A DNA stretch of 64,000 nucleotides, taken from assembly GCF_021023085.1 (NCBI RefSeq), contig NZ_PGCK01000001.1:186001-250000 (forward strand), given 5' to 3'. Shown here in pieces: positions 40,031 through 54,814 of the stretch. Made by a program: the position numbers and the translations under genes. This stretch comes from Methanooceanicella nereidis. GTDB lineage: Archaea; Halobacteriota; Methanocellia; Methanocellales; Methanocellaceae. Below the pieces are notes generated by a model, which had not been told where the DNA came from, searched no databases, and saw only the letters and a program-made list of their open reading frames with translations. Numbering within the stretch: position 1 is the first letter of the stretch; the number at the start of each line of letters is the position of its first letter.

Positions 40031-40141
40031 AACACACACTAATAAAAACTAAAATAAATAGTACTATAGACTATTATGCTTGATAAGGGATAAAGAAAAA
40101 ACAAAAAAGTACAAGTTTAGAAATTAAATTTAGATTTCACA

Positions 40142-40167
40142 GGAAAACTTTTTGAAAAAAGTTTTCC
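40142..40167. terminator. A/T-rich hairpin
   Basis: GGAAAACTTTTT and AAAAAAGTTTTCC form a tight hairpin between the decayed gene and the tRNA cluster. A second, smaller palindrome (AACTCCTTCGGAGTT) follows at about 40198-40212. One or both may end transcription of the tRNA cluster, which is read leftward. Confidence 0.45.
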
Positions 40168-40270
40168 GTTAGCCTTTCAAAAACTTTTATCTATAGCAAC
40201 TCCTTCGGAGTTACAAATATTTTTTATTAAAAAGCAGAGTAAAGATAATTCAGAAATATTAATAGAAAAT

Positions 40271-50364: not shown

Positions 50365-50449
50365 GCGGGGATTGCCAAGCCAGGTCAAAGGCGTAGGGCT
50401 TAGGACCCTATCTCGAAGGAGTTCGTGCGTTCGAATCGCACTCCCCGCA
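50365..50449 (+). tRNA. tRNA-Leu (TAG)
   Basis: Acceptor GCGGGGA pairs with TCCCCGC. The anticodon loop is CTTAGGA (TAG), there is a long variable arm as expected of Leu, and the T-arm is GCGTTCGAATCGC. Discriminator A at 50449. CCA is not encoded. Its 3' 72 bases recur at 54486-54557, marking it as an integration target. Confidence 0.93.
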
Positions 50450-50450
50450 C
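50379..50450. repeat. Left copy of 72-bp direct repeat (attachment-site-like)
   Basis: The 3' part of tRNA-Leu, from GCCAGGTCAAAGG to CCCCGCAC, is repeated at 54486-54557 with one mismatch (CCCTATC here, CCCTGTC there). This is the usual footprint of tRNA-targeting integration. Confidence 0.7.
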
Positions 50451-50685
50451 TTCAAACCCAAATACTAAGACCTTATTTTATACCAAAATCTGCTTTTTTA
50501 ATAGTTCAGTATACAAACTTTTTAATCAATACCCCTCTCAAGCCATTCAAAGCTGATAACCCAATGATCTTTGTTATCAATAGAAATCAAATACACCTAT
50601 TTTACCATTTTTCAGAGTTCGAAATATTCTTCAAGATACCATTAGCAAAAAGATTATCTTGCCAAAATATTATAAATTCTTTCTT

Positions 50686-52056
50686 ATGGAAGAATACGTG
50701 GATAAGCTTTTCCAGATCAAAGAGTTTCTCCAGAATAAGCATCCTGCGCGCTTGTCCATATCGGCCATATCAAGAGAAATGGGCATGAGAAGAAGCTCGG
50801 TCTCTAAATATCTGGACATACTCCAGCTGACCGGTGACGTGACAATGGTGCCTTTCGGGAAGTCTAAATTATTCACCATATCCCAGAGAGTCCCGTATAA
50901 CGCGATTTTTGACATATCTCCGAGCGATATTATCATTCTGAACTCTCGAGGACACGTCGAGATGGTCAACAAAAAATTTGCCGCAGACTTCGAGATCGAC
51001 CATGTGAATAAGATAATCGGACATAACATATGCGAACTCGGGCTAAAAGTCTTTTCGGACCCTGTGATACAAAAAAACATTCGCCGGCTTATCAGCGGAG
51101 AACTGTACATCAAGGAAATGCAGTATATAGAGGAAAAAACGAACCAGGTCTATTACTTAAAGTTCTTGCAGACCGTATCGAACCAGGGCGGCCAGCACGT
51201 GCTTATCAACGTGGATAATATCACTTCCCAGATACTAAAAGACGAGGCTTTCACGATCCTCGATAAAAGGCTGCGGACCATATTCGATGAGGTTCCCAGC
51301 GGGATCATGTTTTTCCGGGCGGATGGTACGATCTTGAACGCCAATCCCGCTTCCATGAGCCTTTTCGGTATAAAGAGGATCCAGGACCTGATCAGCATCA
51401 ACATCTTTGATTTCATATGCACGAAGGACAAGATCATGGGACTGATCAAAGCAGGCAAGGTCGCTGAGATCGACATAGGATGTGACTTCGATGTATTGAA
51501 AAGTGTTAAAAAGATCCCGACGATCAAATCTGGTGTGTCTTATTTTGACGTCGTGTTCACTCCGATCACCACTCATGATAATGATCGCGACCAGAAAGAG
51601 TACGTGATCATGTTCAAGGACATCACGGCGGAAAAGATGGTCGAAAAGGAGCTGAGGTTCAAAGAGTCGCGGTACAGGTCGTTCTTCGACAATACCTGTA
51701 ACGGCATGTTGATCATACAGCCGATCGAAAGAGGAGAGGACTATATAGTAAAGGACATCAATCATGCGACCGAGACCATTTTACGGATAAAAAAAGAGGA
51801 TATCATTGGCAAAAGGATTTTCCGGGAATGGCCGGACCTGCTTGATTTCGGAGTGCGCGAGTCGTTGAAGCGTATAAATTTCACTGAACAGCCTGAGGTC
51901 TTATCCCCCCTGAAATATGTTATCGGGGAGAATGAGCCATGGTGCTCTCATTATGTCTTTAAGCTACCTTCGGGGGAGATCGCATCTTTCATGATCGACG
52001 TTACTGACGAGATGAAAGCGGAGTCGATATCAATAACGAAGGCATGCAATATATGA
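50686..52056 (+). CDS. HTH-PAS sensor-regulator
   Basis: 456 residues. An N-terminal winged helix (~15-70, LSISAISREMGMRRSSVSKY) binds DNA. It is followed by three PAS-like domains at ~75-185, ~195-330 (IFDEVPSGIMFFRADGTILN) and ~335-450 (YRSFFDNTCNGMLIIQP). No kinase or output enzyme is present, so it likely converts a sensed ligand or redox state into transcription control. I use the ATG at 50686. It lies in the segment bounded by the tRNA-Leu repeats and may control the alcohol dehydrogenase gene downstream. Confidence 0.78.
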   Translation: MEEYVDKLFQIKEFLQNKHPARLSISAISREMGMRRSSVSKYLDILQLTGDVTMVPFGKSKLFTISQRVPYNAIFDISPSDIIILNSRGHVEMVNKKFAADFEIDHVNKIIGHNICELGLKVFSDPVIQKNIRRLISGELYIKEMQYIEEKTNQVYYLKFLQTVSNQGGQHVLINVDNITSQILKDEAFTILDKRLRTIFDEVPSGIMFFRADGTILNANPASMSLFGIKRIQDLISINIFDFICTKDKIMGLIKAGKVAEIDIGCDFDVLKSVKKIPTIKSGVSYFDVVFTPITTHDNDRDQKEYVIMFKDITAEKMVEKELRFKESRYRSFFDNTCNGMLIIQPIERGEDYIVKDINHATETILRIKKEDIIGKRIFREWPDLLDFGVRESLKRINFTEQPEVLSPLKYVIGENEPWCSHYVFKLPSGEIASFMIDVTDEMKAESISITKACNI

Positions 52057-52558
52057 CTGGAATTATAGATCTATTGAACGCCAATGAGACCCGGCCACAT
52101 ATTGTTACTTATATTGGCGTTCAATAGAAACGGAGTACTGAAAAGCCACTGATGAATTGCATAATCTTATGCTCATATCTATTTTCCTGCCGATAATCTA
52201 AACTGCCGCCAAATACTACGATTTTTCATATAAGCTTATAATTATTCCCTGTGGTATCCTTGATTAGCCATGGATATTTAATTCTTTGGCGTTCAATAAT
52301 CCAAACGATTATATAAACACCATACATAAGCTATAAACAGGCAATAGCCTAAAGGTACGCGATAAAACACATTTAAAAGCGGGAAGATCAACAGTAATTC
52401 GATCCCGACAAACCGCCTCAATGCTGTAGAGAAAGAATGACGGTTGATACGATCCCAATGATGTTATTCGATACCTAATAGTAATAGATTTTGGTTATCG
52501 AATGATATCCGTCCACGAACAATGTAGCTTTATCGTGTTCATACGGAGGAAAAATTCT
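52057..52558. promoter_or_regulatory. Intergenic region with repeated TTGGCGTTCAATA sites
   Basis: The ~500-bp gap before adf contains a perfect 15-bp inverted repeat (52071-52085 and 52113-52127) whose arms end in TTGGCGTTCAATA, and a third single copy at 52286-52298. The first pair may be the terminator of the PAS gene. The third could be an operator. Confidence 0.45.
52071..52127. repeat. 15-bp perfect inverted repeat
   Basis: CTATTGAACGCCAAT (52071-52085) and ATTGGCGTTCAATAG (52113-52127), loop of 27 bases, placed 15 bases after the HTH-PAS stop codon. Confidence 0.65.
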
Positions 52559-53551
52559 ATGAAGACGAAAATCGGCTATTTCGCATCTGTGGAACAGTAC
52601 AAGCCAATGGATGCGCTTAAACAATCGGTAAGAGCGGAGAACGTGGGTTTTGATTCTATATGGGTGGACGATCATTTCCATCCATGGTACCACACGGGCG
52701 CGGAAACAGCACATGCATGGACATGGATGGCCTCAACGCTGCAGGCAACGAAGAAGGTATTCATCTCTACATGCATCACCTGCCCCATCATCCGTTACAA
52801 CCCTGCAATCGTAGCGCAGGCGTTCGCCACGATGAGGCAAATGTACCCTGGCAGGGTAGGAGTGGCAGTGGGTGCAGGCGAGGCTATGAACGAAGTCCCC
52901 GTAACTGGAGTATGGCCGTCTGTTCCTGAGAGGCAGGAAATGACCGTCGAAGCGATTGAGGTCATGCGAAAATTATGGGAGAGCAAAGAGCCCGTATCGT
53001 TCAAAGGGAAGTACTATAAGCTCGACAAGGCGTTCATGTACACCAAGCCTACGGATGAAGTACCCCTTTACTTTAGCGGAATGGGCCCGAAAGGCGCCAG
53101 GCTCGCCGGTAAATACGGCGACCACCTCATGACTGTCGCTGCCGACCCCAAGACACTAAAGAACGTGACAGTACCGAATTTCGTTGCAGGCGCGAAGGAA
53201 GCGGGTAAAGACCCGAGCAAGATGGAACGTGCGATGCTCCTCTGGTACTCGGTCGATCCGGACTATGAGAAGGCGATCGAAGGTCTGCGTTTCTGGGCAG
53301 GATGCCTGGTCCCGTCGATGTTCAAGTATCCGGTCTATGACTCAAAGGAAGTCGAGCTGCACGCGAACCTAGTCGGCCATGACATGATCAAGAACAACTA
53401 CGTAGTTGCGACCGATGCCGAAGAACTGATCAAGCAGATAAATAAATTCAAGGATGCTGGAATCACGCACTTCTGCCTTGGGAACAGTAGCCCGAATGTA
53501 GATGCAGGGATAGACATATTCAAAGAAGTCATCCCGGCAGTAACAGAGTGA
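52559..53551 (+). CDS. adf: F420-dependent secondary alcohol dehydrogenase
   Basis: 330 residues, a bacterial-luciferase-like (LLM) F420 enzyme. From the start MKTKIGYFASVEQY through WVDDHFHPWYH, FISTCITCPIIRYNPAIVAQ, GVAVGAGEAMNEVPVTG and the end HFCLGNSS it tracks the Methanoculleus Adf sequence as I remember it, including length. Adf oxidises secondary alcohols such as 2-propanol with reduction of F420, letting some methanogens use alcohols as electron donors. The start at 52559 has CGGAGG upstream. The gene ends in a strong terminator. Confidence 0.9.
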   Translation: MKTKIGYFASVEQYKPMDALKQSVRAENVGFDSIWVDDHFHPWYHTGAETAHAWTWMASTLQATKKVFISTCITCPIIRYNPAIVAQAFATMRQMYPGRVGVAVGAGEAMNEVPVTGVWPSVPERQEMTVEAIEVMRKLWESKEPVSFKGKYYKLDKAFMYTKPTDEVPLYFSGMGPKGARLAGKYGDHLMTVAADPKTLKNVTVPNFVAGAKEAGKDPSKMERAMLLWYSVDPDYEKAIEGLRFWAGCLVPSMFKYPVYDSKEVELHANLVGHDMIKNNYVVATDAEELIKQINKFKDAGITHFCLGNSSPNVDAGIDIFKEVIPAVTE

Positions 53552-53575
53552 ATAAGATCTTATTCACTCTTTTTT
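53546..53575 (+). terminator. Terminator of adf
   Basis: GAGTGAATAAGATCTTATTCACTC (given here by its halves GAGTGAATAAGA and TCTTATTCACTC) is a perfect 24-bp palindrome that includes the adf stop codon, followed by a run of T (TTTTTTATTTTT). Confidence 0.75.
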
Positions 53576-53599
53576 ATTTTTATGTAATGAGGTGTGATA

Positions 53600-53992
53600 A
53601 TGGGTCAGAAAAATGCCATAGAGTTATTTTCTAGCGGGAGTATTATCTTTCCGGGTAAATATGTAGATGCTGCAAAGTTGCCATGGTATGAACATCCGGC
53701 GTTCATGGGAGTTTTTTTAAAGGACCTTGTAACGGCGGCAGATACCAGAGGTGCTTTTAGCTGCCATATCGTAAAGATCAAAAAAGGATTTGACGTCGGA
53801 GAGCATTCCCATAATGCCGAATGGGAGTTCAACGAAACTCTCGAGGGCACCGGGTTCTTTGTCATCAACGGTAAAAAATATGCGTGCACGCCAGGCTTTT
53901 CATATGCAACTCCGCCAGGGATGACACATATCGTATCCGCACCCAATGAGGACGTCTATTTATTGGCAAAGTTTATCCCGGCGCTTAAATGA
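53600..53992 (+). CDS. Cupin domain protein
   Basis: 130 residues, single-domain cupin: motif 1 is GEHSHNAEWEFNETLEGTG, motif 2 GFSYATPPGMTHIVSAP. The two histidines, the glutamate and the later histidine can bind a metal. Small cupins include isomerases, dioxygenases and ligand sensors, and the activity cannot be assigned. Its GAGGTG site is six bases before the ATG. Position after adf, inside the tRNA-Leu-bounded segment, suggests a link to alcohol or ketone metabolism. Confidence 0.8.
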   Translation: MGQKNAIELFSSGSIIFPGKYVDAAKLPWYEHPAFMGVFLKDLVTAADTRGAFSCHIVKIKKGFDVGEHSHNAEWEFNETLEGTGFFVINGKKYACTPGFSYATPPGMTHIVSAPNEDVYLLAKFIPALK

Positions 53993-54485
53993 GCTTATAG
54001 ATAATGCCAGGATATTCTCCTTATTTTTTAATAGGTAGTTTAATCGAGATATTTTTCATATAATAGGACCTATGGTTTCCTGCAGGATTTGCGACTAGTG
54101 CTCAATATTATCCGATTAATACCCGGTACTGTCATGTGCAGCGATTTCAGGAATTTGCATATCGCAGATCTAACAATATTAATATCGATCAGTAAATATC
54201 TTATTTTATCATCATAGAGCAAGACGACTGTAAAGAATTTAGGTTCATGTTCCAGCAGAAAAGTAAAAAACAACAATCAAATAATAATAATCGGTTCGTT
54301 TTGTTATTATATAAACCCATAAAAAGGAAGTTTTTTATCTATGAAGAAAGAGGGGATACCGGATTATGCAAAGTCGGGTGCGGAACCGCCCATGACCTGC
54401 CATAAGGAATTTAATTTATAGCAGCCAGGATACTCATAATTAATACCATGTTATCGAGGACTAAAAGCCGATCAGGTAGTATCAG
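53993..54485. other. Intergenic region inside the tRNA-Leu-bounded segment
   Basis: About 490 AT-rich bases. A 26-codon frame at 54341-54421 (MKKEGIPDYAKSGAEPPMTC...) has an AAGGAAG site upstream and could be a small peptide or a gene fragment, but support is thin. No integrase gene or remnant is recognisable here. Confidence 0.35.
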
Positions 54486-54557
54486 GCCAGGTCAAAGGCG
54501 TAGGGCTTAGGACCCTGTCTCGAAGGAGTTCGTGCGTTCGAATCGCACTCCCCGCAC
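54486..54557 (+). pseudogene. Truncated tRNA-Leu copy / right attachment site
   Basis: Matches the 3' 72 bases of tRNA-Leu at 50379-50450 with one difference. The sequence upstream (GGTAGTATCAG) cannot pair as the acceptor 5' strand, so it is not a working tRNA. CCA follows the discriminator here (GCACCA) but not in the intact gene. Confidence 0.8.
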
Positions 54558-54580
54558 CATACCAGAGCAGTTCAAAGCCA

Positions 54581-54814
54581 TCATTTTTGAATTGACAATA
54601 AGTCTTCGATATTGTTTTCCATAAATTTATAAGAATCATAAACACCTTGATTATAAAATTCTGGTGCTAATTTTTCTATTATGAACTCTAAGATCAGACC
54701 TGCTGCCAGATCACCTATTTTTTCGTCTCTTTCCTTTAAAAAATAGTCCTTTATTACAGAGATCATATCGTCCCTTTTCTCTTTAGTTAATTCAATATTA
54801 TTGTTATGTCTCAT
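54581..54814 (-). CDS. DUF2164 family protein
   Basis: 77 residues. IELTKEKRDDMISVIKDYFL and then FYNQGVYDSYKFMENNIEDL match DUF2164, a short all-helical bacterial family with an invariant YNQGV region. Function unknown. The gene lies just outside the right tRNA-Leu copy and is very AT-rich, which fits acquisition from a bacterium. No associated gene is seen. Confidence 0.8.
   Translation of the reverse strand: MRHNNNIELTKEKRDDMISVIKDYFLKERDEKIGDLAAGLILEFIIEKLAPEFYNQGVYDSYKFMENNIEDLLSIQK

Follow-up and report, generated by a model that had tools for sequence, protein, structure and literature searches.

The locus described here lies in a 64,000 nt stretch of the Methanooceanicella nereidis genome (the window), in which two copies of tRNA-Leu(TAG) sequence enclose 4.03 kb of DNA, referred to below as the island. 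There are three genes within it, encoding an HTH-PAS regulator, an oxidoreductase of the LLM class (adf) and a cupin. On the left the boundary is an intact tRNA-Leu(TAG) gene (positions 50365 to 50450, plus strand), identified by ARAGORN, which is 99% identical to the tRNA of M. paludicola and 93% identical to that of G001, a relative that we take to be M. arvoryzae. The right boundary is a displaced 3' copy of the same tRNA (54483 to 54557, plus strand), containing nt 12 to 86. This is followed by the probable original trailer of the tRNA (54558 to 54580, plus strand) and, outside the island, by a DUF2164 gene identified with Pfam (54581 to 54814, minus strand).

Genes of the island

A preliminary description of this DNA, made from the sequence alone, had named an HTH-PAS regulator, an F420 alcohol dehydrogenase and a cupin as the enclosed genes, with DUF2164 just outside. 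All four are supported by Pfam, the dehydrogenase through Bac_luciferase/LLM and also through its match to PDB 1rhc. The left intergenic part of the island (50451 to 50685) has a G+C content of 27.7% and no homologue of it was found. The first gene of the cassette, for the HTH-PAS transcriptional regulator (50686 to 52056, plus strand), was identified through Pfam PAS families and homology; the PAS families score above their cut-offs and HTH_11 is a weak match, its 19.7 bits falling short of the required 25. Directly 3' of this gene is a near-perfect inverted repeat, TATTGAACGCCAAT...ATTGGCGTTCAATA, at 52073 to 52127, and another half copy is located near 52287. The inverted repeat may serve the cassette as a terminator or an operator.

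The second gene, adf (52559 to 53551, plus strand), encodes an F420-dependent secondary alcohol dehydrogenase of the LLM class. Residues 1 to 329 align with the F420-dependent alcohol dehydrogenase of PDB 1rhc (629 bits, E 1e-188). Asp38, His39, Trp43 and Glu108, whose roles in the enzyme we presume, are all found in Adf when read from the alignment. From its family, Adf is predicted to oxidise secondary alcohols, such as 2-propanol, to ketones with F420 and to feed F420H2 into methanogenesis, and the HTH-PAS regulator presumably controls adf. In Methanospirillum, the presence of adf correlates with growth on secondary alcohols such as 2-propanol (PMC11346949). The third gene encodes a small cupin protein (53600 to 53992, plus strand; Pfam Cupin_2). 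The right intergenic part of the island (53993 to 54482) has a G+C content of 34.5%, and an integrase remnant was not detected in it.

The tRNA-Leu(TAG) repeat

The direct repeat (50376 to 50450 and 54483 to 54557) is 75 nt long and 97% identical, with 2 mismatches. It had been described as 72 bases with one mismatch; the repeat is real, extends to 75 nt, and has its second mismatch outside the 72. The second copy is without the first 11 tRNA bases, so the 5' acceptor strand is indeed missing, as was also noted in the preliminary description. ARAGORN makes no tRNA call there, and the RF00005 score of the copy, 19.6 bits, is under the cut-off of 29 bits. In the whole 3.19 Mb genome, the next-best matches to tRNA-Leu(TAG) are other tRNA-Leu genes at 77 to 80%, which places the repeat pair far above chance. 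There is therefore an intact tRNA at one end of the island and a partial 3' copy of it at the other, the arrangement seen in elements that target tRNA genes.

The flanks of the two copies were compared with the tRNA trailers of M. paludicola. Past the right copy, GTTCAAAGC is found 12 nt after the tRNA 3' end. In M. paludicola, the tRNA-Leu(TAG) trailer has GTTCGAAGC at +9 and the tRNA-Leu(GAG) trailer has GTTCAAAGC at +9. The common motif, GTTC(A/G)AAGC, is in no other trailer among those listed and is likewise missing beside the left copy. It occurs just twice in the window with both strands counted. In ungapped comparisons against shuffles, the right flank resembles the M. paludicola trailer over 40 to 80 nt (p 0.005 to 0.02), the comparison over 25 nt being not significant (p 0.15), and the left flank is no better than shuffles. 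The blastn alignment of the right copy also continues into the M. paludicola trailer.

The gene order in M. paludicola is uvrA2, a single tRNA-Leu(TAG) and then a convergent DUF2164 gene 1.46 kb further on, which is the order in the window minus the cassette. Because the trailer motif and the alignment match those of M. paludicola, and DUF2164 is near the tRNA in both genomes, the junction beyond 54557 is, from these sequence matches, probably the old flank of the tRNA. The cassette would then sit between the tRNA and its trailer. An empty site in which tRNA-Leu is continuous with DUF2164 had been predicted for close relatives. This was not seen, as two other ORFs fill the 1.46 kb between the trailer and DUF2164 in M. 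paludicola.

DUF2164 had been remarked upon as a mainly bacterial family located just outside the island. The location is correct, but the gene does not mark the DNA as foreign, being present as one copy in each of the four genomes of the family that were compared (M. nereidis, the source genome, G000; G001; M. paludicola, G002; and G003), with the copies of the relatives 70 to 75% identical to that in the window. In three of the four, DUF2164 is convergently downstream of a tRNA-Leu (window 54581 to 54814; L068 7407 to 7640 in M. paludicola; L070 8465 to 8695 in G001). The isoacceptor beside it differs, being TAG in M. nereidis and M. paludicola and CAA in G001.

Origin of the cassette

The three-gene cassette is absent from all three of the family relatives, where the nearest homologue of Adf has about 40% identity. 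In a collection of 84,980 species, 21 loci encode Adf at 77 to 84% identity. Those with informative names belong to Methanoculleus, Methanogenium, Methanoregula, Methanospirillum, Methanolinea and unnamed Methanomicrobiales, and three of the 21 are labelled just 'Euryarchaeota archaeon'. A further 12 matches to Adf at E<=1e-100 were found in 393 genomes of the phylum, part of which duplicate loci of the 21 under other handles. An HTH-PAS gene is upstream of adf in 32 out of 32 Methanomicrobiales or Methanomicrobiales-like loci, and a cupin gene is 30 to 130 bp downstream of it in all 31 that extend far enough. Given this retained order, the island is one operon-like unit of the Methanomicrobiales kind. 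Over its full length, the HTH-PAS regulator is 46 to 50% identical to its counterparts encoded ahead of adf in short-form Methanomicrobiales loci, against only 23 to 32% to its matches in its own family and in relatives from the phylum. The island cupin is 38 to 58% identical to the cupins downstream of adf in Methanomicrobiales loci and has a single weak match among 40 relatives.

Genes missing from close relatives, with their best kin in a distant taxon, are a mark of a genomic island and are found here. Atypical base composition is another such mark and is not found, the GC3 of Adf being 0.625 and that of the neighbouring uvrA2 0.623. The best reading of the sequence comparisons is that the cassette was horizontally acquired. 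The Adf tree is compatible with a position of the island Adf either inside or beside the Methanomicrobiales clade, and places it in no supported Methanomicrobiales subclade. The direction of transfer therefore rests on the distribution of the genes. The cupin (at most 58%) and the regulator (about 50%) are both far from every sampled donor.

It is very improbable that the cassette is instead ancestral to the Methanocellales and Methanomicrobiales and was lost from the other members of the family, with the tRNA copy coming from a later independent event. The host-like composition of the island and the placement of its Adf outside any supported Methanomicrobiales subclade would be in keeping with such an ancestry. 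However, an Adf identity of 77 to 84% across orders is well above the 68% protein identity of uvrA2 within the family (M. nereidis against M. paludicola), and all three genes are missing from three out of three relatives.

Searches for a carrier of the cassette gave no candidate. The best plasmid homologue of Adf has 37% identity, and the viral contigs contain neither an Adf homologue nor any match to an attP-like tRNA piece. A search of a wider genome contig collection, from which near relatives are probably excluded, with the tRNA pattern likewise gave no matches. The possibility that the cassette integrates into tRNA genes in its donors was also considered. This was rejected because, of the Methanomicrobiales loci, only that of Methanogenium marinum has an adjoining tRNA, without a fragment.

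Integrases and the mode of insertion

The preliminary description had reported no integrase between the copies, and neither a gene nor a remnant was detected there. In tblastn searches of the intergenic stretches with the integrases of G001 and M. paludicola and with XerA, nothing credible as a decayed integrase was found (best E 0.055). The island is in this respect not like a tRNA-targeted element, which would contain an integrase gene or its remnant. It had also been proposed that an integrase might be encoded elsewhere in the genome. The recombinase search, which covered the one Pfam family PF00589, identified XerA as the sole such protein. The XerA gene adjoins the same radical-SAM gene in G003, which shows it to be chromosomal. 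With XerA the only result of that search, a resident tyrosine integrase acting in trans was rejected.

Taking these results together, it is likely that a secondary-alcohol cassette of three genes has entered at the tRNA-Leu(TAG) 3' end and makes up a genomic island of 4.03 kb. The trailer match and the position of DUF2164, which point to the old flank, are the grounds for placing a horizontally acquired cassette at the 3' end of the tRNA. The cassette would have come from the Methanomicrobiales, or share a mobile source with them. Its insertion would have left an intact tRNA beside the left end of the island and displaced the old 3' part of the tRNA (nt 12 to 86), the trailer and DUF2164 to the other end. 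The enzyme that placed it there was most likely a tRNA-targeting integrase, since lost or acting in trans. Of the initial reading as an integrated segment bounded by attL and attR, the insertion with metabolic cargo at the tRNA-Leu 3' end is upheld by the horizontal character of the cassette, its absence from three relatives and the right trailer like that of M. paludicola. Strict attL and attR sites are not established, as there is no integrase inside and only XerA was detected. The segment may have been mobilised in trans or be what is left of a larger element, the two origins first suggested for it.

Other tRNA-bounded segments

Truncated tRNA copies were sought by scanning the genome with RF00005 and at the loci examined, so those given here are a lower bound. 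The scan found two sub-threshold tRNA-like matches, the right copy of the island and a copy of tRNA-Met(CAT) (L147 7783 to 7855; G000 C3:210785-210857). The latter starts at nt 13 and runs 11 nt beyond the 3' end, at 97% identity and with a 1 nt deletion in the anticodon. It is approximately 0.6 kb downstream of the full-length tRNA-Met gene, and a copy of a dispersed repeat separates the two. This repeat family is found downstream of stable RNA genes, at window positions 40140 to 40226 and about 16 other loci in M. nereidis (L147, L162 to L176). It is within about 300 nt after a tRNA, on the same strand, in 12 of 17 loci; two more lie after the displaced ends of tRNA-Leu(GAG) and tRNA-Glu, and one after the SRP RNA. 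Smaller matches to it are present in G001 and M. paludicola. Another copy lies between two full tRNA-Lys(CTT) genes that are 98.7% identical (L173 851 to 927 and 3698 to 3772; G000 C4), together with ORFs annotated by eye as putative formylmethanofuran dehydrogenase subunits.

A second segment resembling the island is at tRNA-Leu(GAG). In M. nereidis, a 3' fragment starting at about nt 17 is 3.0 kb downstream of the tRNA, and genes for a TrmB regulator and an MFS transporter occupy the interval (L073/L170; G000 C6:182655-185812). The same TrmB-MFS pair is present in M. paludicola, where the fragment (nt 22 to 71) is 5.1 kb downstream (L185 7202 to 12401). These genes have 84 to 88% protein identity and 85 to 89% DNA identity between the two genomes (uvrA2: 68% protein identity); G001 and G003 lack them at this tRNA. 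Each fragment follows the tRNA of its own host, at 5 of 7 and 6 of 6 informative sites, which indicates either host-derived fragments or later gene conversion.

Alternatively, the second tRNA-Leu(TAG) copy could be an unrelated tRNA pseudogene that arose by duplication at the locus, the cassette having arrived separately. In favour of this, the truncated copies elsewhere in the genome show that such copies are not always tied to foreign cargo. It is very improbable, since exactly one foreign unit of three genes is enclosed by the copies, the trailer motif present after the right copy is gone from the left one, and tRNA-Leu(GAG) shows the same coincidence around a different accessory cassette.

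The lack of integrases in several tRNA-bounded segments of this genome, those at tRNA-Leu(GAG) and tRNA-Met among them, with XerA as the one recombinase detected, is also consistent with homology-anchored capture. In this, ordinary homologous recombination with the tRNA on one side would have been accompanied by an illegitimate join within the tRNA, near the D arm, on the other, and an integrase would never have been required. The boundaries of the copies vary (nt 12, 13, 17 and 22), and the tRNA-Leu(GAG) fragment matches its own host in both genera, unlike a copy brought in by one shared element. Such capture is rather unlikely to account for the island. Gene conversion between the copies explains host-specific fragments equally well, loss of the integrase from old islands is common, and tyrosine integrases using the same tRNA exist in the family. 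In G001, tRNA-Leu(TAG) hosts a 9.2 kb element (L069 8612 to 17968) that encodes a tyrosine recombinase, Prim-Pol/D5 and an AIPR protein of abortive-infection type and is bounded by a 5' tRNA fragment (nt 1 to 41) and the intact tRNA, in a polarity opposite to that of the island. This identifies tRNA-Leu(TAG) as an integration target in the family. As a broader proposal, which is decidedly unlikely, tRNA genes of the Methanocellaceae might serve as anchors at which small cassettes of a regulator plus an enzyme are captured without an integrase. Foreign operons would go between the tRNA and its trailer through recombination in the tRNA, leaving truncated tRNA copies of host type.

At the 3' end of tRNA-Glu(TTC) there is a 1,755 bp element with 30 bp perfect terminal inverted repeats (L166 1868 to 3721; G000 C3:152367-154149). 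Its 14 bp target duplication, AGCACTATTTTGTA, contains 4 nt of the tRNA and 10 nt of the trailer. An AlkZ-like DNA glycosylase gene is inside and Cas1 is not. It looks like a non-autonomous casposon-like element, and its mechanism is different from that of the tRNA-Leu(TAG) island. For casposons, a median target duplication of 15 nt has been described, overlapping 4 to 7 nt of tRNA 3' ends (PMC4046053), and the targeting of the tRNA-Glu(TTC) element agrees with this.

Comparison with known systems

The island is a compact and well-bounded case in which the use of secondary alcohols as electron donors would have crossed between methanogen orders and landed at a tRNA. The predicted phenotype is an archaeon of the Methanocella family growing on 2-propanol plus CO2. 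With the other integrase-less tRNA-bounded segments of the genome, it leads one to ask by what route cassettes are inserted when no integrase is resident.

Casposons, like the island, insert at tRNA 3' ends in euryarchaea, but have terminal inverted repeats, a target duplication of approximately 15 bp and Cas1 (PMC4046053), none of which the island has. A casposon or transposon origin was rejected on the absence of inverted repeats at its ends and of cas1 among its genes. The 9.2 kb tyrosine-integrase element of G001 is like the island in its target gene and in the partial tRNA copy at its distal end. It differs in having an integrase, Prim-Pol/D5 and AIPR, and in its extra copy being the 5' part of the tRNA, whereas that of the integrase-free island is the 3' part. 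The TrmB-MFS island of M. nereidis and M. paludicola shares with the tRNA-Leu(TAG) island a regulator with a metabolic or transport gene, an intact tRNA with a truncated copy, and the lack of an integrase. It is at tRNA-Leu(GAG), however, carries other cargo, and is common to two genera at 85 to 89% DNA identity. The Adf operon of the Methanomicrobiales has the same HTH-PAS, adf and cupin order and spacing, with Adf 77 to 84% identical. That operon is not flanked by tRNA copies, whereas its counterpart in the Methanocellaceae sits at a tRNA.
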